Part shown: positions 3,656 through 26,430 of the stretch, in pieces
Layout of the letters: every line of letters starts with the position of its first letter
How positions within the stretch are numbered: the first letter of the stretch is position 1
From: a virus
Direction: 5' to 3' (one strand)
IMG/VR virus record: IMGVR_UViG_3300027973_000184
Span: 1-27,509 of that record
Length of the DNA: 27,509 nt
Notes under the pieces: generated by a model
What the model saw: only the letters and a program-made list of their open reading frames with translations
Told to the model about the DNA's origin: nothing
Database searches by the model: none
Position numbers and translations under genes: made by a program

Positions 3656-6600
3656 ATGTCTACACAACAAACAATTTTAAGGGTTCAAACAAACGTACAA
3701 TCAGATTTAACAATATCTGGTACTACTAACCTTTCCCTTATATGGGGAGGTGGAGGAATTGTTTATGGAGGTAATGGTTCACAATATACCCCATTTACCG
3801 GTTATTCAACAAGTAGTGTTTCAGATGATTTTAATATTACCATTACAAATAATGGAAGTTCAGGAACATTATTCTATAGATTTAATTTAGCTAATTATAC
3901 GGGTACATCTAATAACTTTTATACTGAATATTATTTTTCAGTATTTAAAAATGGTCAAACTCCTGCTAGATTTGTTGAATATGCTGTTTCGGATATTGAT
4001 AGTCCTGACAACACATTAAGAATTAATAATGGTGATTATATTAATTTTTATTGTAATATTAATAATGTTGTAAGTGGTAGTACATTTAATATATATTTTA
4101 TACCTGATGATCAATTAGAAAATCCTATATTATCATATGATTTTTTAGATATATATAATAGCATTCCAATTAAAATTAATAAATCATTTGCAGAATTACA
4201 GGATATATCAAAACGTAATTCAGATTATAGTGTTAATATTCAATTACCTGGGTCAAAGAAAAACAATAGGTTCTTTCAAAATTTTTACAATGTTGATAGT
4301 TCTTCATTATATTTTAACCCAAATAAAAGAGTATTATGTGACGTTCTAATTGACGATGAAAGTTACTTTAATGGTTATTTAAGATTAAATAAAATCAATG
4401 TACTTGACTCCAAGGTTGAATATGATGTAACATTATACTCAAGTGTGGGGGATTTATTCGGTAAAATAGGTAACAACCTATTAAAAGATTTAAACTTTAA
4501 CGATATTGATTATCATTTTAATCATTATTTTACATTATATAACGTAACTGCAGGATGGCAAGGTAGTTTATTATTAAATGGTACAGAACAACCTCCTTTA
4601 TGGTTTTATCCTGTATTACACAATGGTTATTTATATTCAGGAGACACTACAAATTTAAGTGGAGGTACGGTTGCATCCCAATCAAGATTATATACTTCAA
4701 CAAAAGTTGGTGCCTTTGTGGATTATGCAGCATTTATTGCCTCAGGTGGAACAGAATATAGAATTAATTCACCTATTAATACAGTATTAGATAATCAATT
4801 AAAACCTGCTTTAAGTATATATAATTTAGTTAAATTAATATTTAAAAATTATGGATATTCAATTAGTTCAACATTTTTTAATACTCCTTGGTTTAAGACA
4901 TTATATACATATGGTTATTTTAGTTCTGACTCAACTAAATTTGGTTTTAGAATATATACCATACAAACATTACCATTAGAAGGTGTTGATATTGTTTTTT
5001 ATAGTTCAGGTGGATTTGACTATGCAATTGTATGTAAATTAGGAACTGGAATCCCATGTTATTGTGAAAGTAATATTAATGTTGTATTTCAATATGACGA
5101 AGGTGAACCATTTGGTATTGTAGATTATCCTTTACCAATTCCTGCAGGGACAACAGGAGCAACTTCAAATTATGGAGGTACTTTTATTGGAGGATATTCA
5201 CTTGAAGTTCCAAATGGTACATTATTATCATATTTTCCAAGACCGGTTGGTAGTGTTGTTAATTTCCAAGAATATAATTTTGTAAATTTTAATTTAGTAA
5301 TAGATGAAAAGATAAAACAAATTGATTTATTATCATCAATAGCAAAGAAATTTAATTTAATATTTACACCAAATCCAAGTAACCCAAGTGAGATTATAAT
5401 TGAACCATATGACTTTTATATTGGTTCAGGTAATATATATGATTGGTCTGATAAAATATCTTATGATAAAGGTTGGTCAGTAGAACCAGCATTGAATTAT
5501 GTGGAGTCAGAATTATATCTTACAGATTTAGAGGATGGAGATGATGGTAATAAACAATTTAAAGATAAAAATAATAGGTTATATGGGGAAATGTACCAAT
5601 ATAACGAAACCGATTTTAAATCTCAACAAAAGAAAATAGACACAATATTTTCACCCGAGATTATTAGAAAATGGGATGATAATATTGGAATCCCGTTGGG
5701 TATAAATTATGTTGCATCTAGTCAAGAAAATACAACAACAAATAGAGTTGAATATCAATATAAAGGAGTTAAAACTAAACCAAAATTATTATTTAATTTA
5801 GGTAATTTCAGTCCTTTTCTTGACCAAGTAGGTGAGTCATATGATTTTGGTTCAGGTACTGGGATTTATACTATGTTTTTTAGATTAAACCAATCTGATG
5901 GAACAAATCCATTAAGTGGTACAACTGCATTAATATATGCAACTAATCCATCCATATCACACACAATTCCAATGGGTAACCCTGACTCAAATAAAATAAA
6001 TGACGATAGTTTATGTATTTTATTTAATTCTGAATTACCAATTGATATAGGATTAGGTCAACCAACCTATAATGCTTATACAGAAAATGACATGTATAGT
6101 GTGTTTTATTCAAATAGAATAGGTAATTTATTTAATAAAACAACAAGATTTTTATCGGGTAATTTCTATTTAAATTTATCGGACATTAAAAATCTTAATC
6201 CAAACGATATTATTAAAATTAATGACCAATATTTTACATGGAACAAAATTGAAGGTTATAATTTAACAAATACTGAACTAACTAAAGTTGAATTAATTCA
6301 ATTTAATAATAGTATTAGAACATATCCAACAAGATATTTTAAATACAATTATCCTAATGATCCAAATAATTATGTCTATAAATTTAGAACATATTTTAAT
6401 CCATCAGAAAATCCTAATACAATTACTTCAGCCAATTCACTACAAAGTACATATTATTATTGGAGTGTTTTTTATGATTATATGGTAGGTGTTTTAGGTG
6501 GAAACGTTTCAGGATTTACATCTTCGTATAATGGATTTTTTGGAGTATATGGACAATTGAGAACTGTATTTAATATTAGTGAAATTACTGAAGATGAATA

Positions 6601-7327
6601 TAATAGTATAAGTTTAACTAATTTTAATGATAGTCAAAATTATATTTTTATTGATCAAATTAATTCTGATTTAAGTTTATTAATTAATGAACAAAATAGA
6701 ATGATTTGGGTTTTTTCAAACCAAACAGGTCATACTAATGCGTTTCTTAACGTAGCATCAGATTATAGTACATTTACAGGATTATGTGCAACTAACTATG
6801 TGTCAACACAATCTGCACCTGTACCTAATTTACCACCAACACCAACTCCTACACCAACTCCATCACCTACTCCATTACCAAATATAATGAGAGGTTCATT
6901 AATATTCACTTTTAACCAAACTCCAAATTATAAAGGTATTGATAATTATACCATAACAGTTAATGGTCAACCAAGAGTATTAAACTATAATAACAACGAT
7001 AATTTATATACAACCTACATATATTCAGGGGATAGTGTTACAATTACAATATTACCAGAATATAATGACTTTAATGTTTATAGAAGAGATTATACAACTG
7101 ATGACCAAGGTGGAGACATGGGAATTAGAGATGTATTTATAACAGGTACAACTTTTACAAATTCTATATCGTTTAATGTAACAACTTCAAGTATTGATTA
7201 TAATTTTGAATATAGAGTAAGTGGAACAACTTATACAGGTGTAACTTATAATCTTTTAACAGAAGATGTAAAAGATATAAAAGCAGAAGATGATGATGAA
7301 ATAATAACAGAACAAAATATCATATAA
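3656..7327 (+). CDS. Large tail-tip/baseplate hub-like protein with PT linker
   Basis: A 1223-residue protein. Residues about 170-275 (PIKINKSFAELQDISKRNSD...NRFFQNFY...FNGYLRLNKINV...YDVTLYSSVGDLF) resemble a module I associate with large tail proteins of Bacteroidetes phages. Around 555-590, IDLLSSIAKKFNLIFTPN is the kind of segment seen in gp27/hub-like tail proteins that assemble at the tube end. Residues about 1058-1078 form a Pro-Thr linker. It leads to a separate C-terminal beta domain of about 145 residues, probably an exposed adhesin. The length and position just before the fibres fit a tail-tip role. The hub label is inferred from motif resemblance and context. Confidence 0.6.
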   Translation: MSTQQTILRVQTNVQSDLTISGTTNLSLIWGGGGIVYGGNGSQYTPFTGYSTSSVSDDFNITITNNGSSGTLFYRFNLANYTGTSNNFYTEYYFSVFKNGQTPARFVEYAVSDIDSPDNTLRINNGDYINFYCNINNVVSGSTFNIYFIPDDQLENPILSYDFLDIYNSIPIKINKSFAELQDISKRNSDYSVNIQLPGSKKNNRFFQNFYNVDSSSLYFNPNKRVLCDVLIDDESYFNGYLRLNKINVLDSKVEYDVTLYSSVGDLFGKIGNNLLKDLNFNDIDYHFNHYFTLYNVTAGWQGSLLLNGTEQPPLWFYPVLHNGYLYSGDTTNLSGGTVASQSRLYTSTKVGAFVDYAAFIASGGTEYRINSPINTVLDNQLKPALSIYNLVKLIFKNYGYSISSTFFNTPWFKTLYTYGYFSSDSTKFGFRIYTIQTLPLEGVDIVFYSSGGFDYAIVCKLGTGIPCYCESNINVVFQYDEGEPFGIVDYPLPIPAGTTGATSNYGGTFIGGYSLEVPNGTLLSYFPRPVGSVVNFQEYNFVNFNLVIDEKIKQIDLLSSIAKKFNLIFTPNPSNPSEIIIEPYDFYIGSGNIYDWSDKISYDKGWSVEPALNYVESELYLTDLEDGDDGNKQFKDKNNRLYGEMYQYNETDFKSQQKKIDTIFSPEIIRKWDDNIGIPLGINYVASSQENTTTNRVEYQYKGVKTKPKLLFNLGNFSPFLDQVGESYDFGSGTGIYTMFFRLNQSDGTNPLSGTTALIYATNPSISHTIPMGNPDSNKINDDSLCILFNSELPIDIGLGQPTYNAYTENDMYSVFYSNRIGNLFNKTTRFLSGNFYLNLSDIKNLNPNDIIKINDQYFTWNKIEGYNLTNTELTKVELIQFNNSIRTYPTRYFKYNYPNDPNNYVYKFRTYFNPSENPNTITSANSLQSTYYYWSVFYDYMVGVLGGNVSGFTSSYNGFFGVYGQLRTVFNISEITEDEYNSISLTNFNDSQNYIFIDQINSDLSLLINEQNRMIWVFSNQTGHTNAFLNVASDYSTFTGLCATNYVSTQSAPVPNLPPTPTPTPTPSPTPLPNIMRGSLIFTFNQTPNYKGIDNYTITVNGQPRVLNYNNNDNLYTTYIYSGDSVTITILPEYNDFNVYRRDYTTDDQGGDMGIRDVFITGTTFTNSISFNVTTSSIDYNFEYRVSGTTYTGVTYNLLTEDVKDIKAEDDDEIITEQNII

Positions 7328-7330
7328 AAT

Positions 7331-8392
7331 ATGTCACAGATAAAAATATCAGATTTACCACTCTATACAGGAAATACAACAGGTGTATATGTGGTAATGA
7401 ATAATAGTGGTGAAACAATCACTTATAAAGTAACTAAAGAAACCTTAATTGGTTCTTCAGGTACATCAGGAACGTCAGGTTCCAACGGTTCTTCGGGAAG
7501 TAGTGGTTCTAATGGTACAAATGGTTCTTCAGGAACTTCAGGTTCTAACGGTTCTTCGGGAAGTAGTGGTTCCAACGGTTCTTCGGGAAGTAGTGGTTCT
7601 AATGGTACAAATGGTTCTTCAGGAACTTCAGGTTCTAACGGTTCTTCGGGAAGTAGTGGTTCTAACGGAACTAATGGTTCATCAGGAACATCAGGTAGTA
7701 ATGGTACTAATGGTTCTTCAGGTTCTAATGGTACTAATGGAAGTTCAGGAAGTTCTGGTTCTAATGGAAGTTCAGGTACATCCGGTAGTAATGGTACTAA
7801 TGGTTCATCAGGAACATCAGGTTCTAATGGTACAAACGGAAGTAGTGGAACATCAGGTTCTAACGGAACTAATGGTAGTTCGGGAAGTTCTGGTGGTAAC
7901 GGTACAGATGGTTCATCAGGAACTTCAGGTTCCAATGGAACAAATGGAACATCAGGTACTAATGGAACGTCAGGTGATAGTTTATTTGCATTGACAGGTA
8001 GTGTTTGGAACACAACAAGAAATTTAGGAATTACAGGTTCATTAAATATTAGTGGTTCTACATTTATAACTGGTTCAGTTCAAGGAAATGTAAATGTTTT
8101 AACAATAAGTTCAAATACATCTTCATTAGATTTTTCAAAAGCAACATTCTTTACATTACAATTAGTAGCAGGAACAAATACATTTATTAACCCAACAAAT
8201 ATTAAAGAGGGAAATACGGTAACGATATTAGTTAATACAACGGGTTCAGCAACTGTGTCTTTTCCAAGTTCAGTAAAACAACCAGTTGGTTCAATATATG
8301 TTCCTACTACAACAACCAGTGTTGATGTTTTGTCATTAATGTCTCTTAATTCTTCAACAATTTATTTAGCTTCAACTAAAAACTTTAATTAA
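7331..8392 (+). CDS. Collagen-like tail fibre protein
   Basis: A 353-residue protein in three parts. Residues 1-40 (KISDLPLYTGNTTGVYVV) match an N-terminal attachment motif common in Bacteroidetes phage fibres. Residues about 41-215 are roughly 58 uninterrupted Gly-X-Y triplets built from SSG, TSG, SNG and TNG, which should form a collagen-like triple helix stabilised by Ser/Thr/Asn rather than hydroxyproline. Residues about 216-353 are a beta-rich head: two TGSL repeats, then a fibre-tip domain (FTLQLVAGTNTFINPTNIKE, later IYLASTKNFN). The triplet region contains a perfect 90-bp tandem duplication. The gene starts 3 nt after the previous stop. Fibre role is clear; receptor unknown. Confidence 0.8.
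   Translation: MSQIKISDLPLYTGNTTGVYVVMNNSGETITYKVTKETLIGSSGTSGTSGSNGSSGSSGSNGTNGSSGTSGSNGSSGSSGSNGSSGSSGSNGTNGSSGTSGSNGSSGSSGSNGTNGSSGTSGSNGTNGSSGSNGTNGSSGSSGSNGSSGTSGSNGTNGSSGTSGSNGTNGSSGTSGSNGTNGSSGSSGGNGTDGSSGTSGSNGTNGTSGTNGTSGDSLFALTGSVWNTTRNLGITGSLNISGSTFITGSVQGNVNVLTISSNTSSLDFSKATFFTLQLVAGTNTFINPTNIKEGNTVTILVNTTGSATVSFPSSVKQPVGSIYVPTTTTSVDVLSLMSLNSSTIYLASTKNFN
7478..7657 (+). repeat. Perfect 90-bp tandem duplication in collagen-like region
   Basis: Bases 7478-7567 and 7568-7657 are identical by eye over all 90 positions, including synonymous choices. Each copy encodes ten Gly-X-Y triplets. Surrounding triplets encode similar residues but differ at synonymous sites, so this copy is a recent event, not shared codon bias. 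Confidence 0.9.
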
Positions 8393-8393
8393 T

Positions 8394-11294
8394 ATGTCAA
8401 TATTTAAACCATTTTTTAATAATAACATTGGTATTTGTACTAATTTTTATACAGGTTTTAATACTATAGTTCAAAGAATTGCTACAGATAATTGGGGTAA
8501 TTTAATATGTGGTTTAAATTTAAAACCATATAACACAATAATTACACCAACATATAGTGGAGTTACTTATTCTGATCAAAAATTTATTTTTAAATTATCA
8601 CCTGAAGGAAAAGTTTTAGCTACTAATACAAATCCTCCAACACAAAATGAAGGTTCAATAGTTAATGGTTTAGGTTTTAATAGTACAAAATCACTATTTG
8701 TTTTATCAAGACATAGAGCGGGATATTCAAATAATGGTACAAGTTATTTAACGTATAATAATACACAAAATGGTTTTAGTTATATTAGAAATATTGGCAC
8801 GCCAAGTGGTGGTGCTGATGATTATATATGTAAATTTTTAACTTTTCAATCAGATGATAAATTATTAATTTATGGTAGTTTTACATTTTTTTATAATACT
8901 ATAACTGGTAATAGGTACCAAAATTCAATAGTTAGAATTAACCAAAACTTACAAGGAACAGACACATCATTTAATACATATTTTAATTCTGGTTGTACAA
9001 TTAATATTGTAAGACAACAATCAAATGGTAAATTAATAGTTGGTGGTAATTTTACATCATATAGTGGTGTTACATGTGGACCTGTAGTTAGATTAAATTT
9101 AGATGGAAGTATAGATAATACTTTTAATTTAAATTATTCAGGAAGTGGTAGTGTAAGTGATATTGCCATTCAAACAGATGGTAAAATAATACTTGGATTT
9201 GCAACTATAGGTGGTACGATAGATGGATATACAATATCATATATATGTAGATTAAATTCAGATGGAACATTAGACACTTCCTATCCTTATAATTTAATGA
9301 ATAATTATATAATTAGATTTAATATTAATGATAATAATCAATTATATGTAGGTTTTTCAGTTGATTATCCTTCAACAATTACATATAGTGGACAAACAAT
9401 TAATGCTTTATTTAGATTAAATTCTGATGGAACATTAGACACAACATTTAATACAGGTTTAGGATTTGATTATTCAAATTTATATGTAACACCAGTTAGT
9501 GCTGTTTTTGATATGGCTTATAATAATGGAAAAATATTTAATGGTGGAGCATATATTAAATATAATAATTATATAGCAGGAAATTTATCAGGTATAAATA
9601 CTGATGGAAGTTTTGGTGAATGTAACCCAATTATAATTTATCCAACTCCAACAGCCACTCCAACTTCAACACCTACTCCTACTCCAACTGTGACACCTAC
9701 TTCAACACCAACTAAATTTGTTGGTAATATTGTTAAAGGAACAAATATATATGACCCTTGTGCTGTAGCTAGTCAAACATTTACTGTCACAGGAAGTATG
9801 GTTAATTTTTGTGATAATACACAACTATATGGTAGTTGGATTAGTGGAAGTAATTATGTTAAAACTTCTCTTTGTAGTTCAACATATATGGTTATATCAG
9901 CACCATCTACAGGAACAGGAGTTGGTACTGTTATACAGGGATGTACATCTTGTCCAACAACACCACCATCAGGAGCAATGACATATACTGTAAATTATAA
10001 TTCATATCCTGTTACTGGTTCTGTAGGTGAAACAAATATTACTATATATAATAATACAAGTCAATCTGTTTATTTATGGGGTCACTTTAATAGCGGTGGA
10101 GCATCAAGTGGAAGTATTTCTGGTAGTAACACATTATCATATACACAATATAATCCTACAATATCTACTACTTTACGTTTTAATCAAACTGTTAGTGGTT
10201 CATTACAAGATTTTTATAGTATAAATAATACAACTATAACAGCAAATAATAGTGCTTCTATGTATGTTTATAAAAATGATGGTATATTAAATCAAAGTAG
10301 TTTAGGTGTAAGTTATTCATTTACTGCCTTTAGTTGTAGTACAAAATTCAATTTAGGAGATATTCCAGTACCAATAACACCTACTCCAACTCCAACTCCT
10401 ACTAACACTCCATTATTTACTGGTTCAGGATATTTTGGTTCAACTACTAATGATGCTTGTTCAGGAGCAATTAGTGGTATTAGTGTTAATTTTACAGGTA
10501 ATACAACAAGTTTCTGTTTATCAACTTATTTCACTGGTAATACATTTGCTTATCAATCAAGTGGAACATATTATTTACAGTATGGTGGAAATTACCAACA
10601 AATATCAATAACATTTGGTAGTGATGTTGCAGAAGTAATAGGTGCTGGATGTTCTGCTTGTCCTTTAACACCTACACCTACACCAACACCAACAGGAACC
10701 CCAACACCGACTCCTACTCAAACACCTACACCAACAAGTCCACCGACTTATTTATATTATTCAGTGGATAGAAGAGCGACGTGTAATACAGGAATTGAAA
10801 ATCCTGTCGCAATGTTTGCACAATTACCATATGCATTTACACCAACATTAAATGGATGGTATAGAGATAGTTCAGGTACATGTACATATTCATATAGAAT
10901 ATCTAATATAACACCAACAAACCCTGGTATATTCACACCGGTTCCTGTTGATGCTGTAACTTATGCAGATAGTACCTTGGCTTGTGGATCAGGATGTATC
11001 CCGACCCCAACCCCAACTCCTACACAGACAGGAACACCAACTCCTACTCCTACAACAGTATATGAACTATATACAGCAGATAGATATACTTGTGACACTC
11101 CATCAGGACCTTGTACTTATGTTGAAACATTACAGATTGCTAATCCAACTGTACTTGTTACAAGTAAATTCTATTTAGATAGTATTAATGGGTATATATT
11201 TAATATTGTAGGTGGTCCTATTAGTGGTCCGTATTTATATACAAGTATGGGTGGATTAGGAACAAATAATTGTAGTTCATTATGTTCAATATAA
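8394..11294 (+). CDS. Tail adhesin: delta-60 propeller plus PT-linked cysteine modules
   Basis: A 966-residue multidomain protein. Residues about 1-410 hold delta-60-type repeats (RLNLDGSIDNTFN, IQTDGKIILGF, RLNSDGTLDTTFNTGLGF), which pack as a beta-propeller. Pro-Thr linkers at about 417-440, 661-673, 757-785 and 870-887 separate the rest. Modules at about 450-521 and 683-757 share the pattern DxC...FC...GCxxCP. Between them (522-660) is a non-repeated beta domain. Modules at about 787-868 and 889-966 share a DRxTC start, a central aromatic segment and a terminal CxxxC. The last is closely matched at the end of the next gene. The gene begins 1 nt after the collagen-like gene, so it belongs to the fibre cluster. 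A role in host surface binding is inferred. Confidence 0.7.
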   Translation: MSIFKPFFNNNIGICTNFYTGFNTIVQRIATDNWGNLICGLNLKPYNTIITPTYSGVTYSDQKFIFKLSPEGKVLATNTNPPTQNEGSIVNGLGFNSTKSLFVLSRHRAGYSNNGTSYLTYNNTQNGFSYIRNIGTPSGGADDYICKFLTFQSDDKLLIYGSFTFFYNTITGNRYQNSIVRINQNLQGTDTSFNTYFNSGCTINIVRQQSNGKLIVGGNFTSYSGVTCGPVVRLNLDGSIDNTFNLNYSGSGSVSDIAIQTDGKIILGFATIGGTIDGYTISYICRLNSDGTLDTSYPYNLMNNYIIRFNINDNNQLYVGFSVDYPSTITYSGQTINALFRLNSDGTLDTTFNTGLGFDYSNLYVTPVSAVFDMAYNNGKIFNGGAYIKYNNYIAGNLSGINTDGSFGECNPIIIYPTPTATPTSTPTPTPTVTPTSTPTKFVGNIVKGTNIYDPCAVASQTFTVTGSMVNFCDNTQLYGSWISGSNYVKTSLCSSTYMVISAPSTGTGVGTVIQGCTSCPTTPPSGAMTYTVNYNSYPVTGSVGETNITIYNNTSQSVYLWGHFNSGGASSGSISGSNTLSYTQYNPTISTTLRFNQTVSGSLQDFYSINNTTITANNSASMYVYKNDGILNQSSLGVSYSFTAFSCSTKFNLGDIPVPITPTPTPTPTNTPLFTGSGYFGSTTNDACSGAISGISVNFTGNTTSFCLSTYFTGNTFAYQSSGTYYLQYGGNYQQISITFGSDVAEVIGAGCSACPLTPTPTPTPTGTPTPTPTQTPTPTSPPTYLYYSVDRRATCNTGIENPVAMFAQLPYAFTPTLNGWYRDSSGTCTYSYRISNITPTNPGIFTPVPVDAVTYADSTLACGSGCIPTPTPTPTQTGTPTPTPTTVYELYTADRYTCDTPSGPCTYVETLQIANPTVLVTSKFYLDSINGYIFNIVGGPISGPYLYTSMGGLGTNNCSSLCSI

Positions 11295-11304
11295 AAAATA
11301 AAAT

Positions 11305-12114
11305 ATGAGTAAAAAATATATAGCACAGGTCAATAGTGACAATTTCGTTTATCCAAACAACACACTCGCGGAGTATGATGTGGATATTGTACACGACATA
11401 AACAATAATAGTGTAAGTGGAACCACATCAGGTTTCAGTGCAGCATATAATAGTGGAACAGGAAACATTGGCATTTCATTTACATATATATGGAATAAAA
11501 ATGGTGCTGACCCGTACATTGATGAAAGTAATTTATTACATATTTTATCAGTTCACATGACAGAACCAACTAAAGAATATTATAAACCTTGGAGAATGGT
11601 TTCAGGTGTAACAACCTCAACCATAACTGCTACCACCAAAACAGACACCTTTGCTTTTGTTGTAACACCTTCAATGATGGGAATTAGTTCATTTTCATCA
11701 GGGGTATATAATTTTGAGATTAGATTTATCGGAAAGAGGGCAATATATCCATTATGTTATTCAACATCTATATTAAATATAACACCAACACCTACCCCAA
11801 CTGTTACACCTACCCATACACCTACTCCTACTCCTACACCAACGGGAACACCTACACCAACACAAACAAGTGGAAGTTATAATTATTATAACGTAACAAG
11901 ATATACTTGTCCAAGTTGTACTTCTCCTGTTACAGATTTAATAGCAAGAACAACATCACCAACAAGTTTAACAAATACACATTATTACAATAATGGTGAT
12001 GGTTACGTTTATTTGGTTAATAGTAGTGTAGGTGGACCAAGTTATACAATAAATTTAGATGGTTCAGCATCACCTTCACCAGGTACTAACTGTAGTAATG
12101 TTTGTGCAGTATAA
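11305..12114 (+). CDS. Small adhesin/tail protein with PT linker and cysteine module
   Basis: A 269-residue protein. Residues 1-155 form an N-terminal beta-rich domain of no recognised family, perhaps the attachment part. Residues about 160-188 are a Pro-Thr linker (TPTPTPTVTPTHTPTPTP). Residues about 193-269 are a cysteine module (YYNVTRYTCPSC...HYYNNGDGYVYLVN...NCSNVCAV) that lines up with the last module of the upstream 966-residue protein (YTADRYTC...FYLDSINGYIFNIV...NCSSLCSI). The stop is 10 nt before the next small gene. The shared terminal module suggests the two proteins bind related ligands or form alternative tips. Function is inferred from architecture. Confidence 0.6.
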   Translation: MSKKYIAQVNSDNFVYPNNTLAEYDVDIVHDINNNSVSGTTSGFSAAYNSGTGNIGISFTYIWNKNGADPYIDESNLLHILSVHMTEPTKEYYKPWRMVSGVTTSTITATTKTDTFAFVVTPSMMGISSFSSGVYNFEIRFIGKRAIYPLCYSTSILNITPTPTPTVTPTHTPTPTPTPTGTPTPTQTSGSYNYYNVTRYTCPSCTSPVTDLIARTTSPTSLTNTHYYNNGDGYVYLVNSSVGGPSYTINLDGSASPSPGTNCSNVCAV

Positions 12115-20863: not shown

Positions 20864-21124
20864 ATGAACGATTATATATATCAACTTATCGGAGCTATTG
20901 TAACAACCGTTATTGGTTATATTATTGGTTTCCGTAAAAGTAAAAATGAAATTGAGGGTGGACGACTTGAGAATATGGAAAAATCTTTAAAGGTATATCA
21001 AATAATAATTGATGACCTATCAAAAAAGGTTGAAGAATTGACTAATCACATTGTTAGATTAGAACAAACAATAGAGAGTTTAAAACAGGAGAATAAAAAA
21101 TTAAAAAACAAAAGTACAATATAA
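20864..21124 (+). CDS. Membrane-anchored coiled-coil protein (holin- or spanin-like candidate)
   Basis: An 86-residue protein. Residues about 3-23 (DYIYQLIGAIVTTVIGYIIG) form one membrane helix. It is followed by a basic FRKSK, then a charged coiled coil over residues about 36-82 (LSKKVEELTNHIVRLEQTIE). This N-in, single-pass, long soluble coiled-coil layout occurs in inner-membrane spanins and in BhlA-type holins. The basic flank after the helix argues for a cytoplasmic coiled coil, which fits a BhlA-like rather than a spanin topology. No lysin gene is visible nearby. Its stop overlaps the next start by one base. Confidence 0.45.
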   Translation: MNDYIYQLIGAIVTTVIGYIIGFRKSKNEIEGGRLENMEKSLKVYQIIIDDLSKKVEELTNHIVRLEQTIESLKQENKKLKNKSTI

Positions 21125-21483
21125 TGGAGTTAAATCAATTTGTTTCAACATTATGGCAGAGTAGGACACAGTCACATGTCTTCCATCATCAAACCAGTTC
21201 TTATTCGGAACATAAAGCCTTAAGAAATTACTATGAAAGTATTGTACCATTGGTTGACGGGTTTGTGGAGTCAGTTCAAGGAAAGTATGGAATTATATTA
21301 TCTTATTCTACTTATCCTCTTAATGATTGGAGTGAAGGTGGTACAATGGAGTATTTCCACATGTTATGTGAGTTTGTTGATTATAGTAGAAAAACTTTAC
21401 CACAGGACACCTACATCCAAAACCAAATAGATGAAATTACACAATTACTATACGAAACTAAATATCTATTAACCCTTAAGTAA
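21124..21483 (+). CDS. DUF5856 / Dps-like phage protein
   Basis: A 119-residue helical protein. The N-terminal motif contains TQSHVFHHQTSSYSEHKALR followed by NYYESIVPLVDGFVESVQGK. It reproduces the DUF5856 pattern of closely spaced His, an H/xxxH pair and an Asp/Glu on the next helix (His18, 21, 22, 30; Asp45; Glu49). This resembles the metal-binding half-sites of Dps/ferritin-like proteins. DUF5856 proteins are widespread in marine and freshwater phages and are of unknown function. The gene follows the membrane protein with a one-base overlap, late in the virion operon. Whether it binds iron or DNA is not shown by the sequence. Confidence 0.55.
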   Translation: MELNQFVSTLWQSRTQSHVFHHQTSSYSEHKALRNYYESIVPLVDGFVESVQGKYGIILSYSTYPLNDWSEGGTMEYFHMLCEFVDYSRKTLPQDTYIQNQIDEITQLLYETKYLLTLK

Positions 21484-21484
21484 T

Positions 21485-21709
21485 ATGAACATTCATGACC
21501 TACAACGTATTAGAGTTGAACTATCAAAACAGGTTGAACCTCCAATGGTTCCAGCCTTGGTGGTAGATGAAAGTTTTATCGTTCCTACACCCGAACCAAA
21601 TGAGAGTCAGAATGACTACGTAAGTCGTTGTATGAGTGTCATTGGTGGTGAAGACAAACCACAGGACCAATTGTTGGCCATCTGTGTTTCCACCTACGAG
21701 AATAAATAA
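21485..21709 (+). CDS. Small acidic protein with NESQxDYVSRCM motif
   Basis: A 74-residue protein. The C-terminal half has PNESQNDYVSRCMSVIGGED followed by QLLAICVSTYENK. This matches a short recurrent phage motif, 'P.e.E..d.yi.RCm......dq..aiC...w', which I have seen attached to portal and protease proteins and as stand-alone genes. The two cysteines (in RCM and AIC) are typical of it. It is the last gene of the plus-strand operon, 1 nt after the previous stop, and is followed by convergent hairpins. Function unknown; a role in packaging or head assembly is only suggested by the company it keeps. Confidence 0.5.
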   Translation: MNIHDLQRIRVELSKQVEPPMVPALVVDESFIVPTPEPNESQNDYVSRCMSVIGGEDKPQDQLLAICVSTYENK

Positions 21710-21711
21710 AA

Positions 21712-21768
21712 AACCCCTCGTAGAAACGAAGGGTTAAGATTAGGTAACGGTTATAAAAAACCTAATCT
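21712..21768. terminator. Convergent terminator region
   Basis: Two adjacent dyads. AACCCCTCG (21712-21720) pairs with CGAAGGGTT (21727-21735) with one mismatch, and on the minus strand it is followed by TTTTTTATTTATT, a good minus-strand terminator. AGATTAGGT (21737-21745) pairs perfectly with ACCTAATCT (21760-21768), which includes the stop of the minus-strand gene. The pair separates the virion operon from the opposing block. Confidence 0.7.
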
Positions 21769-21941
21769 ATATGTTTAGGGGATAGTTTAGTTCTTAACTT
21801 TTTATATACTTTTAATCTTAAGTCATCAATACGATTTGTTAGTTTTGATTTGTCTTTTAAATCCAAGGCATCACTTTCACATTCCATTTTATAATACACT
21901 TCAAGAGCACATATCATTAATTCTAATTCTTTTTTTGTCAT
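21762..21941 (-). CDS. Small hypothetical protein
   Basis: A 59-residue helical, charged protein starting MTKKELELMICALEVYYKME and ending KLRTKLSPKHID. No family is recognised. It is supported by its A-rich start context (aataATATGAC), its placement 1 nt after the stop of the preceding minus-strand gene, and the terminator that follows it. It is the last gene of the minus-strand block. Nothing in it suggests enzyme activity; small helical proteins of this type are often regulators or inhibitors of host proteins. Confidence 0.5.
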   Translation of the reverse strand: MTKKELELMICALEVYYKMECESDALDLKDKSKLTNRIDDLRLKVYKKLRTKLSPKHID

Positions 21942-21942
21942 A

Positions 21943-22113
21943 TTATTTATTGATTTTATAAATTAGATTTTTAATTGTGTTTATTGTTCTAATATCATTT
22001 ATACTAACTTCTTCACCATCAGGTATTTTTTCAAGTTGTTCTCTAACAACTGATAGGAGAGATTTTAATGTGTAGTTGACTACCTTCAATTCGTCTTCTG
22101 TGAACTTTTCCAT
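21943..22113 (-). CDS. Small acidic hypothetical protein
   Basis: A 56-residue protein starting MEKFTEDELKVVNYTLKSLL and ending NTIKNLIYKINK. Mostly helical, no cysteines and no membrane segment. It begins 1 nt after the previous stop and ends 1 nt before the next start, so it is a tightly packed member of the minus-strand block. Family and function not recognised. Confidence 0.5.
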   Translation of the reverse strand: MEKFTEDELKVVNYTLKSLLSVVREQLEKIPDGEEVSINDIRTINTIKNLIYKINK

Positions 22114-22114
22114 A

Positions 22115-22402
22115 TTACTTATTTAATAAATGTTTTTTAATTATATCCATATCTTCATCCGAGACAATCATTTCTACACTTTCATCAATGGGTTTGGTAA
22201 TAACACCACGGATGGTTTCTTGTTTTTTAAATTCTTTTTCAATAATAGCCGAAATAATTTGACATAACTTTTCTGTTGATAGGAATAATAAATGTTCATT
22301 TTTCATAGGTATAATTATTTTATTACCTGTTTCGGGGTCTTCTACTGTAAAGGTAGTCATTGTTTCACCTTCTTCAAACATAACTTCTTGTGGTTTTTTC
22401 AT
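22115..22402 (-). CDS. Hypothetical acidic protein
   Basis: A 95-residue protein. The first half is beta-like and acidic (VMFEEGETMTTFTVEDPETG, NKIIIPMKNEHLLFL). The second half is helical (LCQIISAIIEKEFKKQ) with a terminal acidic helix (SDEDMDIIKKHLLNK). No family recognised. It follows the 71-residue gene by 5 nt. Size, acidity and position in an accessory block would suit a host-takeover or anti-defence protein, but the sequence alone does not show it. Confidence 0.55.
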   Translation of the reverse strand: MKKPQEVMFEEGETMTTFTVEDPETGNKIIIPMKNEHLLFLSTEKLCQIISAIIEKEFKKQETIRGVITKPIDESVEMIVSDEDMDIIKKHLLNK

Positions 22403-22407
22403 TTTAT

Positions 22408-22623
22408 TTATTTTTGTTCTGTAATAATTTCTTTCATTCGTTGGTAGTCAATTTCTGTGTTAGGACTATCCATCTCTTTAGTCACCGTGTGATATTTTTT
22501 GACATGGTAAGGTGTGAGTGGTTTAGTGTGTTGTCTTAAGAACTGTGTTCGTTTATCAAGGTACTCAAAAAACTCCTCCTCGGTCAATTGTTTTAGTTCC
22601 TCGTCTGTTAAGTTATATTCCAT
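22408..22623 (-). CDS. Hypothetical protein
   Basis: A 71-residue, charged helical protein (MEYNLTDEELKQLTEEEFFE, then YLDKRTQFLRQHTKPLTPYH). No recognised domain or cysteine motif. It starts 1 nt after the preceding minus-strand stop and is cotranscribed with its neighbours. Codon use is like that of the block. Function unknown. Confidence 0.5.
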   Translation of the reverse strand: MEYNLTDEELKQLTEEEFFEYLDKRTQFLRQHTKPLTPYHVKKYHTVTKEMDSPNTEIDYQRMKEIITEQK

Positions 22624-22624
22624 A

Positions 22625-22921
22625 TTAGTACTCTAAAAATCTGAAAGGTCTGATTGAATAATAAACGTCGTAGGTCACTTCCTCTATACCTTCGTACTCC
22701 TCACCGTCTGGTTGTCCCTGACTTTTTATCTTAATTAGAAAATCACCAATGGTACCTTTAATATTCAGTTGTTGTGTATGAACAAGGTACCCCACAATTT
22801 CGTAGTCGTTACCAAATAGTCGGTGTATGTCGTTAATACCCTCTACCAAGTCGTAGTAGAATTGGTCGGTGGTTCCTGGTAACTCTATTTGAATTACCTC
22901 ATTGTGTAATAGTCGTCTCAT
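22625..22921 (-). CDS. Hypothetical protein
   Basis: A 98-residue protein with a beta-rich C-terminal half (NIKGTIGDFLIKIKSQGQPD, EVTYDVYYSIRPFRFLEY) and an N-terminal helix (YYDLVEGINDIHRLFG). No family recognised. Its start directly abuts the stop of the 28-residue membrane ORF. It is likely transcribed from the Bacteroidetes-type promoter at 23028-23059. It carries more G/C at synonymous sites than the fibres, as do several genes of this block. Confidence 0.55.
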   Translation of the reverse strand: MRRLLHNEVIQIELPGTTDQFYYDLVEGINDIHRLFGNDYEIVGYLVHTQQLNIKGTIGDFLIKIKSQGQPDGEEYEGIEEVTYDVYYSIRPFRFLEY

Positions 22922-23008
22922 TTATTTTAATTTTGTTATTTTATTTAATTTATAAATTACTAATACAATTAGTAAAAAATAAGGTAGGATTGATAAAGTA
23001 TGTAACAT
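22922..23008 (-). CDS. 28-residue single-pass membrane peptide
   Basis: MLHTLSILPYFLLIVLVIYK followed by LNKITKLK: one membrane helix with a basic tail. The ORF fills the gap exactly, its TAA ending at the base before the next ATG. A consensus host promoter lies just upstream and would give a leader of roughly 12 nt. No coding statistics can be judged at this length; the case rests on packing, promoter distance and hydrophobicity. Alternatively this is simply an A/T-rich 5' leader. Confidence 0.4.
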   Translation of the reverse strand: MLHTLSILPYFLLIVLVIYKLNKITKLK

Positions 23009-23027
23009 ATTTTTTGGTTTTGTTCCA

Positions 23028-23059
23028 CAAAAATACGACGGTATAACTTACCCACCAAA
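23028..23059 (-). promoter_or_regulatory. Bacteroidetes-type promoter TTTG-N20-TATTTTTG
   Basis: On the minus strand, TTTG (23059-23056) is followed after exactly 20 nt by TATTTTTG (23035-23028), an exact match to the -33 TTTG and -7 TAnnTTTG elements of Bacteroidetes housekeeping promoters. Transcription would start near 23020 and serve the genes from 23008 down to 21762. Confidence 0.65.
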
Positions 23060-23087
23060 TCTTTTTTGAGAAACTTATCCACATTTT

Positions 23088-24329
23088 TTAATTACCAACC
23101 AAATTATCAAAGGAGTTTTTTAGGACCATATTATAGTCGTTCACCTTGGGACCTTCCAATTGAACACCGTTCTTTAAAACCAGTGGTTGTTTGAATAATT
23201 TGGTATAGGAGATGTGGTGGTGTGGTCGTCCATCCACATGTCGTCCTGTGGTCAACTTGACAATGTCTGGCCAATTGTTCTTCAGTTCGTCAAACTTTTT
23301 TTGGTACCCACTCACCGTTCCACCCTCGTAGATAGATGAGGTATTACCACCTGTCATAGTACCTGTGGTCTGTTTCCCTGATAGGAGTGAGTTGAAATTA
23401 ACAGTTGTTAAGTCACCTGTGGACAAAACCCTCAAGGTTAAATCCGTGTCCTCATTATAGGTACCTCTCCATCTCTCATCCAATCTTGAATCCAACAACT
23501 CTGTGTTGATTAAAATACAACTGTAGGTTCTAGTGTTCAGAATGAATTGTTCCCGACTCACATCAATTGTAGGTACGAAGGAAGTGTATTGACAACTAAC
23601 CAACCCAAGGTTCTCATACCTATCACTAAAGTCCTCCATGATTCTGAAGAACACACCTGACTTAACCTTCTTCTGTAAATTGTAGTTCCATCTGTAGAAA
23701 CCTAATATATTATCATCCAATATCCAATGTTTGGTATGACCCATCTGTTTTGAATGTTCCCATACCCAATTACGGACAGGGATTCCACCTTGACCACGTT
23801 CAGAAAAGTTCTCGGGTAGGACGATGATTTTATTTTTATCAATGGAAGGATTGGAAATGTAATTCTCATACTCTTTTGGTTCAACACAAATATAAAAATC
23901 TACACCCATTTCTTCAAGTGAGTCAATGGTTAATGTTTTTTCCCACCTACCTTTAGTTATTACGTAGATAGGATATTTTGGGTCAACCTTATGTGTGTAG
24001 TAATATATGTGTTCGTCATACCAATTACCATCTAACATGTAATGGATGTAGGAATTTTTGGTTGGTTTTTTGTGGAAGGACTGAAAAAATATATCACTCT
24101 CTTCTTGTGTGTTAATCTCCACATCAAAAATAAATCTATCCTTGGTGGACTCGGACCACTTAAACTCGGGTAGGTTGGTGTAGTGTTCGTTAGTTAGTGG
24201 ATTGAATTTGAAGTAGTCCTCAATCAGATTGTACTTTAATACGTTGGTGTTCTTAAGGATTTGTTCCACCGTGTCTTTATGACTGGTGTGAACCTTCATC
24301 TTTTTTGATTTGAATTGATCATTTGCCAT
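23088..24329 (-). CDS. TET-associated-like glycosyltransferase (DNA base modification candidate)
   Basis: A 413-residue protein. Residues about 118-155 (YPIYVITKGRWEKTLTIDSL, then VDFYICVEPKEYENYI) look like a GT-A nucleotide-sugar entry. ENFSERGQGGIPVRNWVWEH (173-192) is a Gly-rich loop and following helix. TKHWILDDNILGFYRWN (199-215) contains the acidic DDN expected to bind the sugar-nucleotide metal. YNEDTDLTLRVL (291-302) is a second acidic motif, and GGNTSSIYEGG (327-337) a third conserved loop. This combination matches what I recall of TAGT/GREB1-type transferases, which in phages glycosylate 5-hydroxymethylated pyrimidines in DNA. The N-terminal 110 residues are unassigned. No TET/JBP or hydroxymethylase partner is in the window. 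A protein or capsule glycosyltransferase is the alternative. Confidence 0.65.
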   Translation of the reverse strand: MANDQFKSKKMKVHTSHKDTVEQILKNTNVLKYNLIEDYFKFNPLTNEHYTNLPEFKWSESTKDRFIFDVEINTQEESDIFFQSFHKKPTKNSYIHYMLDGNWYDEHIYYYTHKVDPKYPIYVITKGRWEKTLTIDSLEEMGVDFYICVEPKEYENYISNPSIDKNKIIVLPENFSERGQGGIPVRNWVWEHSKQMGHTKHWILDDNILGFYRWNYNLQKKVKSGVFFRIMEDFSDRYENLGLVSCQYTSFVPTIDVSREQFILNTRTYSCILINTELLDSRLDERWRGTYNEDTDLTLRVLSTGDLTTVNFNSLLSGKQTTGTMTGGNTSSIYEGGTVSGYQKKFDELKNNWPDIVKLTTGRHVDGRPHHHISYTKLFKQPLVLKNGVQLEGPKVNDYNMVLKNSFDNLVGN

Positions 24330-24348
24330 TTTAATTATTTTGTTTTAT

Positions 24349-24380
24349 ATTAATAAATATAAAGAAAAAAATCAAAAGCA
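24349..24380 (-). promoter_or_regulatory. Candidate phage promoter (TTTCTTTATATTTATTAATA)
   Basis: On the minus strand CTTTTGATTTTTTTCTTTATATTTATTAATA lies 24 nt before the glycosyltransferase start. It shares nearly 30 positions with the element at 25645-25680 on the plus strand, including the upstream TTTTGA. Confidence 0.55.
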
Positions 24381-24578
24381 AGAAATAATTGAAGTATTTT
24401 TTTAAAAAAAGAAAGGGGGTTGTGTATAACAATAAAACAATATTACAAATGGCACTAAGTAATAATATCTGACCCCCTCTCTAATATTAAATATAGGGGA
24501 AATAGAAAAAGATGTAAAGGGTATTGGAAACACTGTCCTCACCTCTACATCTTACATCAATATACAAACAAAACAAAA
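24381..24578 (-). ncRNA. Non-coding, structured intergenic segment
   Basis: About 250 nt between genes hold no ORF. On the minus strand, AAGATGTAGAGG pairs with CCTTTACATCTT (positions 24553-24542 and 24520-24509) with a G-U at one site and then runs into TTTTTC: a terminator-like hairpin for the upstream 82-residue gene. The odd pair is G-U only on the minus strand, which argues for that strand. Further on, AGGGGGT/ACCCCCT (24478-24472 and 24420-24414) encloses a 51-nt loop and is followed by TTCTTTTTTT. It is a second terminator or a small RNA. Confidence 0.4.
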
Positions 24579-24827
24579 CTAAATTTCTATTCCATCCACG
24601 TCGTTGGTTAATCTGTCTCCCATTAATTTATTGAATTTTTTTAATCGTTCTGTTATTTTTGGTGTTAAACCTTCATAACAAAAGTCGGTCATCAGTTCTA
24701 CGTAGATTGTAAATTCATACGGGTCTAATGATTGTAGGTAACCCATCTTGGATAGGTACTCTCTACAGTGTTGTGTTTGATTTTGACGGATAATACTCCT
24801 GTCCTTGTTGTACGTTTCGTTTGCCAT
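24579..24827 (-). CDS. Hypothetical protein
   Basis: An 82-residue protein starting MANETYNKDRSIIRQNQTQH and containing CREYLSKMGYLQSLDPYEFT, DFCYEGLTPKITERLKKFNK and ending NDVDGIEI. Helical, with no recognised domain. It has its own promoter box 23 nt upstream and a terminator-like hairpin 26 nt downstream, so it is a monocistronic unit facing away from the DUF6291-like gene. That placement suits a regulator or early gene. No HTH motif is evident. Confidence 0.55.
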   Translation of the reverse strand: MANETYNKDRSIIRQNQTQHCREYLSKMGYLQSLDPYEFTIYVELMTDFCYEGLTPKITERLKKFNKLMGDRLTNDVDGIEI

Positions 24828-24870: not shown

Positions 24871-24909
24871 GGTAATAAAAAATAATTGGAAAGATTTTTT
24901 CTTTCGGTT

Positions 24910-24998
24910 ATTTTCCCTATACTTATAATAGTCCCCTCTAACAGTAAAGGACATTAAAACATTAATAGGGTTATTGGAACGAAAGACGAGGTTAGAGG
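24910..24998 (+). promoter_or_regulatory. Divergent promoter and leader dyad
   Basis: CCTATACTTATAATA matches the phage box TTTATATTTATAATA at 12 of 15 positions. Downstream, CCTCTAAC (24935-24942) and GTTAGAGG (24991-24998) form a perfect 8-bp dyad across 48 nt in the presumed leader of the gene starting at 25031. An operator or a leader fold is possible. Confidence 0.35.
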
Positions 24999-25030
24999 CG
25001 TTGAGTAGGACCTTTAACCCTTATTTTATT

Positions 25031-25630
25031 ATGAAAAATAGAAAGGCATTTAACTTCTATCGTAGTTATTACGATTTAGTTATTGAATTACCTGATGAAC
25101 AAAAAGTAAAGTTTTTGATGGCAATTCTAAATAAACAATTTTCGGATATTGACCCTCAACTTGATGGTTTGGTTGGGTTACTTTACAAAAGTCAACAACA
25201 CAGTATTGATAAACAAGTTGAGGGTTATAAATCTAAAATGAAAATTAAGACACCTACCGAAGGACCTACCGAAGGACCTACCGAAGGACCTACCGAAGGA
25301 CCTACCGAAGGACCTACCGAAGGTCTTCAGTTACACCCTACCGAAGGACCTACACAACCCCCTACCGAACCCCCTTACCTAGACCCTTCGGTACAAGGGG
25401 AAGAGAAAGGACAAGAGAAAGAGAAAGGGAAAGAACAAGTAGACGAAAAAAATAAAGTAAAACTAAAAGGTGAATTAGGAATTAAATTAAAATCAATATT
25501 TAAAACAATACCTAATATTATTAAACTGGTTGATATTAATGATTTAGATAAAGTAGAACGAATGGATAAATATTTATTCAATCTACATTACTCAACGATA
25601 GTTGAATATCAATCCATCAAAATAAATTAA
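25031..25630 (+). CDS. DUF6291-like protein with PTEG repeats
   Basis: A 199-residue protein. The ATG at 25031 is chosen over the TTG at 24974 because it begins the recognisable domain and follows an A/T-rich leader. Residues 1-70 (FNFYRSYYDLVIELPDEQKV, LMAILNKQFSDIDPQLDGL) match the DUF6291 pattern seen in phage proteins near replication genes. Residues about 75-98 are six PTEG units, with a seventh after LQLH. A Lys/Glu-rich low-complexity stretch follows (about 120-150). The C-terminus (LKSIFKTIPNIIKLVDINDL) is helical. DUF6291 proteins often carry a winged-helix or replication-initiator part; here the C-terminus is too short to show one. Downstream genes are separated by a promoter box. 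Confidence 0.55.
   Translation: MKNRKAFNFYRSYYDLVIELPDEQKVKFLMAILNKQFSDIDPQLDGLVGLLYKSQQHSIDKQVEGYKSKMKIKTPTEGPTEGPTEGPTEGPTEGPTEGLQLHPTEGPTQPPTEPPYLDPSVQGEEKGQEKEKGKEQVDEKNKVKLKGELGIKLKSIFKTIPNIIKLVDINDLDKVERMDKYLFNLHYSTIVEYQSIKIN
25253..25324 (+). repeat. 12-bp minisatellite, six copies (PTEG)
   Basis: CCTACCGAAGGA repeated six times in phase, all identical except the last base of the sixth copy (T). A seventh, separate copy occurs at about 25338. It encodes an acidic PTEG linker between the two halves of the DUF6291-like protein. Confidence 0.9.
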
Positions 25631-25644
25631 CTCAATTATTTTTT

Positions 25645-25680
25645 TCTTTTGAGTTTTTTCTTTATATTTATAATAAATAA
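25645..25680 (+). promoter_or_regulatory. Candidate phage promoter (TTTTGAGTTTTTTCTTTATATTTATAATA)
   Basis: The best copy of the recurring box, 20 nt before the next start. It follows the DUF6291-like stop by 15 nt. Confidence 0.55.
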
Positions 25681-25690
25681 AATAACCAAC

Positions 25691-25891
25691 ATGGGACCAA
25701 AATGGAGAGAAGATAGTTTAACTTTAAAAAGTTTTTACAAACTATCTCAACAAGAAAAAGAGGAATATCTATTCCTATTACAAGGACTACATCCTGGTGA
25801 AAGAGGAGATGTTGATGACCACATCATCCATTTCCATTCCAAACAAATTAATAAACCAAAAGAGTTTTTAAACATAGAAGAAACATTATGA
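25691..25891 (+). CDS. Small hypothetical protein
   Basis: A 66-residue protein starting MGPKWREDSLTLKSFYKLSQ. The start at 25691 is preferred to an upstream non-ATG start, which would translate the promoter box. It contains LLQGLHPGERGDVDDHIIHF and a His/Asp cluster (DDHIIHFHS) without a recognisable family. Its stop overlaps the next start as ATGA, so it is coupled to the HNH gene. Function unknown. Confidence 0.5.
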   Translation: MGPKWREDSLTLKSFYKLSQQEKEEYLFLLQGLHPGERGDVDDHIIHFHSKQINKPKEFLNIEETL

Positions 25892-26430
25892 TAGTACCAA
25901 TACAAATACCTGGTTACGAACACTATTCTATCTCAACCGAAGGAGTAGTATATTCAACCAGTAATACTACAAGGACTAAAACCCTACCAAGAATTAAAAT
26001 TAGAAAATCACATCCCAACAAGAACACTGGTTACCTCCAAGTGTTATTACAGAATGGGAAGTTGAAGTTGAAACCAAAATTGTTTTACGTACACCGTTTG
26101 GTGGCTATTCATTTTATTCCTAATCCAAATAATCTATGGGAAGTAAATCATCTTAACTTTAATAGGGGTGATAATCGTATAGAGAACTTGGAATGGGTAA
26201 CCAAAAGAGATAATGTTATTCATTCAATACCAAACAGAAATAATGTGGTTAAGTTAATATTAAAAGATAATGAACTGTTGGAGAAAGGACTTAACAGTTA
26301 TAGAAAAATACAATGTACCCCAAGGGTAAGTAAGATATGGAATTGTAGTGACACTACTACCTTAAAAATATTAAGGTCACATGGATTGAAAATAAAATGG
26401 GAACACAAGAAACCTTTAGAATTGGTTTAA
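25888..26430 (+). CDS. NUMOD4-HNH endonuclease (homing-type)
   Basis: A 180-residue protein. Residues about 6-25 (QIPGYEHYSISTEGVVYST) are the NUMOD4 motif. Residues about 70-108 carry the HNH core: YVHRLVAIHFIPNP, VNHLNFNRGDNRIENLEWVT. The His of VHR, the NH pair and the N...ENLEW are all present, so the nuclease should be active. The C-terminal VSKIWNCSDTTTLKILRSHG suggests a helix-turn-helix for target recognition. Free-standing genes of this kind are common selfish elements in phages and spread by cutting homologous sites. The frame is intact, and it starts inside the previous stop (ATGA). Confidence 0.85.
   Translation: MIVPIQIPGYEHYSISTEGVVYSTSNTTRTKTLPRIKIRKSHPNKNTGYLQVLLQNGKLKLKPKLFYVHRLVAIHFIPNPNNLWEVNHLNFNRGDNRIENLEWVTKRDNVIHSIPNRNNVVKLILKDNELLEKGLNSYRKIQCTPRVSKIWNCSDTTTLKILRSHGLKIKWEHKKPLELV

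Follow-up and report, generated by a model that had tools for sequence, protein, structure and literature searches.

The TAGT gene and its surroundings

We have analyzed an IMG/VR phage record of 27,509 bases, the whole of which is termed the window. An intact open reading frame (ORF) on its minus strand, beginning with ATG and having no internal stop, encodes a protein that matches the Pfam TAGT family (PF20691) with E = 9.5e-36. The match covers residues 119-328 and the full profile (positions 1-205 of 205), with a score of 124.1 bits against a gathering cut-off of 27.5. The protein also matches PHROG 842, 'beta-glucosyl-HMC-alpha-glucosyltransferase', with E = 3e-35. TAGT was the only family found in a Pfam scan with E values up to 1; the profiles of the T4 alpha- and beta-glucosyltransferases (PF11440 and PF09198) and of GREB1 gave no match in it. 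A sequence search of the PDB with the window protein returned no similar chain, and no TAGT was found among the PDB sequences. The original prediction for this DNA had pointed to five peptides, in a given order, as the mark of a TAGT or GREB1-like glycosyltransferase. All five are present in the ORF in that order, and profile, fold and motifs agree on TAGT, with a resemblance far beyond chance. The window protein is a true TAGT.

The positions of the features are collected in Table 1. On one side of the gene the structural module ends at 21709, and on the other an early plus-strand module begins at 24974; the minus-strand block between them varies in content among sister phages. Fibre or capsid genes do not adjoin it, and its placement in an accessory block away from the fibres had been correctly predicted.

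Table 1. Features of the TAGT locus in the window
Feature	Position	Strand	Evidence or remarks
Terminator-like hairpin, end of minus-strand block	21712..21735	-	
Accessory minus-strand block: TAGT and small ORFs (82, 98, 71 and 95 aa, two shorter)	21762..24827	-	small ORFs without significant family matches
TAGT-family (PF20691) glycosyltransferase, 413 aa	23088..24329	-	intact ORF, Pfam, PHROG 842, AlphaFold
TAGT catalytic domain, residues 119-328	23346..23975	-	Pfam match, full profile 1-205
Invariant G327-G328 (GGN), C-terminal edge of TAGT domain	23346..23351	-	30 homologues
E293-D294 (NEDTDL), invariant; presumably supplies the catalytic base, like the 'ED' motif of GT2 enzymes	23448..23453	-	30 homologues; role inferred
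D205-D206 (HWILDDN), invariant; DxD-like, would bind metal and UDP-sugar	23712..23717	-	30 homologues; by analogy with GT-A enzymes
N-terminal accessory domain, residues ~9-111, beta-alpha-beta units, motif LPEFKWS	23997..24305	-	fold elements in model; no Pfam match
Leader upstream of TAGT, 249 nt, strong predicted RNA structure	24330..24578	-	folding z = -4.9; 95-98% identical in sisters L002/L003
Promoter-like element directly upstream of TAGT	24334..24403	-	repeated in window and sister phages
Second promoter-like copy, preceding the 25649/25888 ORFs	25621..25685	+	83% identical

The 69 nt upstream of the gene recur in the window as the close copy listed in Table 1 and as a weaker one at 24874-24930, and they recur also in the sister phages. 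The repeated element is AT-rich and promoter-like (TTGCTTTTGA...TTTCTTTATATTTAT) and is located where several transcription units start. The earlier claim that the gene has a phage-type promoter of its own is thus supported at the level of sequence, and the recurrence of the element in the window and sisters makes it a probable phage-wide promoter.

The leader lies between the ORF at 24579-24827 and TAGT. It is 98.0% identical to that of L003, the figure for the TAGT coding DNA being 90.7%. A leader segment, UGCCAU, is complementary to the start of TAGT (AUGGCA), and both sides change together in L002 (CGCCAU and AUGGCG). The leader also contains 13 nt that are antisense to the start region of ORF 24827. 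The leader is a possible regulatory RNA; an Rfam search of the window gave no match.

Several other features of the window were observed. A NUMOD4-HNH homing-type endonuclease (25888-26430, plus strand) adjoins the variable block. The ORF at 24974-25630, which has a DUF6291 match, contains a 12-nt tandem repeat (25240-25383) encoding PTEG repeats, and its L002 version is only 42% identical. Tail-fibre-like ORFs at 125-1585 and 7331-8392 carry long SSGTSGS(N)G repeats, and TPTPTP stretches occur in the ORFs of 3656-12114. A 119-aa protein of the DUF5856 / phrog_858 'starvation-inducible' family is encoded directly 3' of the structural genes (21124-21483, plus strand).

Fold and conserved residues

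An AlphaFold model of the window TAGT, calculated from a 30-row alignment, predicts with confidence the GT-A fold that is expected of the family (pLDDT 83.6, pTM 0.83). The neighbors found by Foldseek and VIA-align are GT-A glycosyltransferases, i.e., SpsA, ppGalNAcT-2, collagen glycosyltransferases and the chlorella virus hyaluronan synthase; the best structural alignment has Z up to 13.5 and an rmsd of 4.9 A over 236 residues, with 10% identity. Searching the BFVD library of virus structures gave matches to TAGT-annotated viral proteins with E down to 1.6e-21. The outcome that the original prediction had set against itself was a best match to capsule or protein glycosyltransferases with no similarity to TAGT. 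Although the PDB structures matched are GT-A enzymes of this kind, the similarity to TAGT is strong.

Aligning 30 homologues revealed 24 invariant columns, which include D205, D206, E293, D294, G327 and G328. The acidic DD and ED motifs expected of the family are present, and the motifs picked out in the original prediction are the conserved ones. In GT-A and GT2 enzymes the DD motif binds the metal-UDP-sugar and the ED motif gives the catalytic base. By analogy, we infer the same division of roles in the window TAGT, for which a nucleotide sugar would be the donor. The T6 TAGT forms a beta-1,6 bond (gentiobiose) (PMC13390438), which is consistent with inversion, and the window enzyme is presumably also inverting.

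The N-terminal domain taken alone had no Pfam match and nothing in PHROG below E = 0.13, and a search of bacterial genomes from one seed found no relatives. The TAGTs of L031, PTm1 and avDM6 carry a comparable domain as a fusion. Short separate ORFs lie directly upstream of TAGT in L032, L033 and L036, and are possibly a separate counterpart of the domain. Our guess is that it might be an adaptor that binds DNA or the sliding clamp.

Replisome synteny and the history of the gene

Outside its own phage group, the nearest relatives of the window TAGT (64-69% identity) are found in unrelated, mostly large phages. Those of the IMG/VR phages L004-L028 (e.g., IMGVR_UViG_3300031857_000028) belong to the same clade and share the domain layout, including the N-terminal extension. 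In contrast to the window, where TAGT is a lone accessory gene of a small phage, TAGT in these phages lies between the sliding clamp and the clamp loader. The gene order is clamp, an optional HD hydrolase, TAGT, an optional short TAGT paralogue and methylase-like gene, then clamp loader. Nearby are genes for PolB (phrog_262, 2.6e-190), DNA ligase, the small clamp-loader subunit, dCMP deaminase and dUTPase. Sequence alone did not identify the clamp, a PDB profile search being empty and the match to T4 gp45 weak (E = 0.006); structure settled the matter, the model (pLDDT 93.2) matching PCNA with a Foldseek value of 2.7e-13 and TM up to 0.82.

The association extends to other lineages. TAGT stands directly before a beta-clamp-like gene in L032, L036 and L218, and near T4-type clamp and loader genes in L217, although in a limited labelled comparison most TAGT loci of bacterial genomes had no clamp gene. 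Clamp genes beside TAGT in several lineages point to DNA as the likely acceptor, and modification would probably take place at the replication fork. There is a precedent for coupling a DNA glucosyltransferase to the replisome, in that the T4 alpha-glucosyltransferase (GT63) binds the gp45 clamp (PMC13216743). The analogy is one of role, since the T4 enzyme has a GT-B rather than a GT-A fold and is unrelated in sequence. The replisome synteny of the nearest relatives of the window TAGT is new here.

Further features of the large phages may be recorded. In L017, L018, L024, L026 and others a short TAGT paralogue directly follows the long one, being optional between phages; the tandem arrangement suggests two-step glycosylation. 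The large TAGT phage G011 (IMGVR_UViG_3300024346_000008) encodes ThyX, an adenylosuccinate-synthetase-like protein, several epimerases, an NTP-transferase and an aminotransferase, while G010 (IMGVR_UViG_3300031857_000028) encodes an IMPDH/GMP-reductase-like protein and an HD hydrolase. Further base or sugar-nucleotide chemistry is possible in these two phages.

How did the gene come to the window phage? In the tree the window protein groups with those of L002 and L003 (support 99/100), and is nested inside the clamp-associated clade (support 95/99 for the 9-row set). The tree was rejected as a guide to base chemistry, as the TET and the ThyA labels are each spread over more than one group; the branches of T6 and P12024L are long and their positions uncertain. 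The window, L002 and L003 are one phage group, and among close phages TAGT is present in these three only, intact in each with 92-96% protein identity and all catalytic residues kept. No TAGT was found in 31 sister contigs collected through the capsid protein, many of them fragments and three closed genomes of 30-33 kb. The latter (G017, G037 and G043) have exact terminal repeats of 123, 994 and 123 bases and closed lengths of ~30.3, 32.9 and 33.1 kb. In other sisters the equivalent variable block holds HNH and homing endonucleases and genes without assigned function. TAGT in the window phage is most simply explained as a recent accessory gain, probably borrowed from much larger phages. The phage had been assigned to the Bacteroidetes. 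No gene in the window names a host, but TAGT phages and prophages of Flavobacteriaceae are among the relatives found, so a host in the Bacteroidota is plausible.

The acceptor and the source of the modified base

Our preferred reading, to which we give a probability of about 0.72, is that this GT-A enzyme glycosylates a hydroxylated pyrimidine in phage DNA. With a nucleotide sugar as donor, it would attach the sugar to a hydroxymethyl- or hydroxy-pyrimidine, and the glycosylated DNA would be shielded from restriction and other DNA-targeting defences. A phage of ~33 kb would have acquired the gene from large phages in which TAGT is encoded alongside the clamp and its loader; the enzyme would probably act at the replication fork. 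The claim that the enzyme acts on phage DNA, which was already part of the original prediction, thus draws indirect support from the replisome synteny and from the TET or hydroxymethylase partners of its relatives; the lack of a base hydroxylase in the window and sisters counts against it, as do the empty ThyA and TET searches of the 145.7- and 163.9-kb relatives and the action of the PDB structural neighbors on proteins and polysaccharides.

Such partners are seen in several known systems. A TET/JBP or hydroxymethylase gene in the same genome gave the TAGT family its name, although this association is not universal. The T6 TAGT matches PF20691 (E = 3.7e-9) and directly adjoins the thymidylate-synthase-type gene 42, with polymerase, clamp loader and clamp genes close by. 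It has long been assigned the addition of a second glucose to glucosyl-hmC (PMC13216743; PMC13390438). Its motifs, WMIDD / CED / PGG, follow the order seen in the window TAGT and in A1, although in a profile comparison with A1 it aligns only weakly (E = 0.025). However, the T6 protein is very distant, with 279 aa and no N-terminal domain, and it acts on alpha-glucosyl-hmC in a genome that also encodes an alpha-glucosyltransferase and the gene 42 hydroxymethylase. No ThyA-family gene of this kind is present in the window, which is an incomplete genome.

In the Nonlabens phage P12024L, also a small phage and one with a host in the Flavobacteriaceae, gp26-gp28 are consecutively TET (PF12851, Tet_JBP 5.9e-27), TAGT and a methyltransferase. 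This TAGT also matches PF20691 and is distantly related to that of the window (32% over 46% of the query), which lacks the accompanying oxygenase and methyltransferase. TAGT lies near a TET homologue in the Winogradskyella MAG contig L222, and Ah1, Kuja and PTm1 have TAGT together with a thymidylate-synthase-family (ThyA) gene. TAGT genes are thus often accompanied by a route to hydroxylated pyrimidines.

Where, then, would the base come from in the window phage? No TET, ThyA or ThyX gene was found in the window. The sister contigs have no TET/JBP, and those searched for ThyA and ThyX gave none; the PF12851 search does detect the TET of P12024L. The original prediction had placed a TET/JBP, hydroxymethylase or kinase partner outside the window, an expectation for which the data give no support. 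Only ~5-7 kb of a genome of ~33 kb lies outside, and in closed sisters the missing stretch holds terminase and genes without assigned function. A partner there is possible, and would need an extra insertion or be an uncharacterized gene. A rightward extension of the window through ORF 26553 returned only the two short relatives already known.

A version of our reading to which we lean somewhat less than evenly is that the enzyme glycosylates DNA whose modified base comes from an unrecognized enzyme, the gene for which would be among the small ORFs or in the ~5-7 kb that the window lacks, or is provided by the host, a resident prophage or a co-infecting phage. The orphan setting of the gene favors this, and there are parallels elsewhere. 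Relatives of 145.7 and 163.9 kb, on contigs that may be incomplete, have TAGT with neither ThyA nor TET, as have the Vibrio phages 1.076.O and 1.124.O. Moreover, solitary TAGTs, lacking an alpha- or beta-glucosyltransferase, occur in 288 of 753 phage genomes, and have been discussed as possible novel transferases (PMC13216743). ThyX occurs without ThyA in three TAGT phages (G011, G012 and G013), but its normal product is dTMP and it is absent from G010 and the window, and was rejected as the universal missing partner. The small ORFs, at 71-98 aa, are below the size of known hydroxylases. A bolder extension, which we hold only tentatively and think rather doubtful, is that the clamp-associated clade, the window TAGT included, acts behind the fork through the N-terminal adaptor, on a base made by an unrecognized hydroxylating route neither of the TET/JBP nor of the ThyA type, such that one moved gene confers DNA glycosylation on a small phage.

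We consider it unlikely that the acceptor is a protein or surface glycan, such as a virion protein or receptor. The missing partner and the fold similarity to protein O-glycosyltransferases such as ppGalNAcT (Z ~13.5) and collagen glycosyltransferases would be in keeping with this, as would Vibrio phage 1.076.O, where TAGT lies between portal and head-morphogenesis genes in a genome without thymidylate synthase, TET or ThyX. But sequence family and synteny both indicate DNA metabolism, and the window gene keeps no such company with fibre or capsid genes. Still less probable is a second-step enzyme that extends a sugar placed on DNA by another glycosyltransferase. T6 provides the precedent (PMC13216743; PMC13390438), and tandem TAGT pairs in Kuja and the large phages suggest stepwise addition. 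Nevertheless, the window has just one recognized glycosyltransferase gene, and the long TAGT stands without an adjoining short paralogue in L022, L023, L025 and L028, so that the long type seems sufficient alone. That a recently acquired gene is now functionless, decaying cargo would fit its restriction to three close phages, but is very improbable given its intact catalytic residues and the conservation of its leader and promoter-like element.

The TAGT family itself was already known, and the window protein adds a member in an apparently orphan, mobile setting. Assays have been made on few of its enzymes. Replisome synteny in several lineages provides concrete, testable evidence for the action of TAGT on DNA during replication. 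The orphan copy raises the question of the origin of the acceptor base. Either answer, be it a hydroxylase so far overlooked or another acceptor, would extend what is known of how phages camouflage their DNA, and is relevant to the range of defences that phages of this kind evade.
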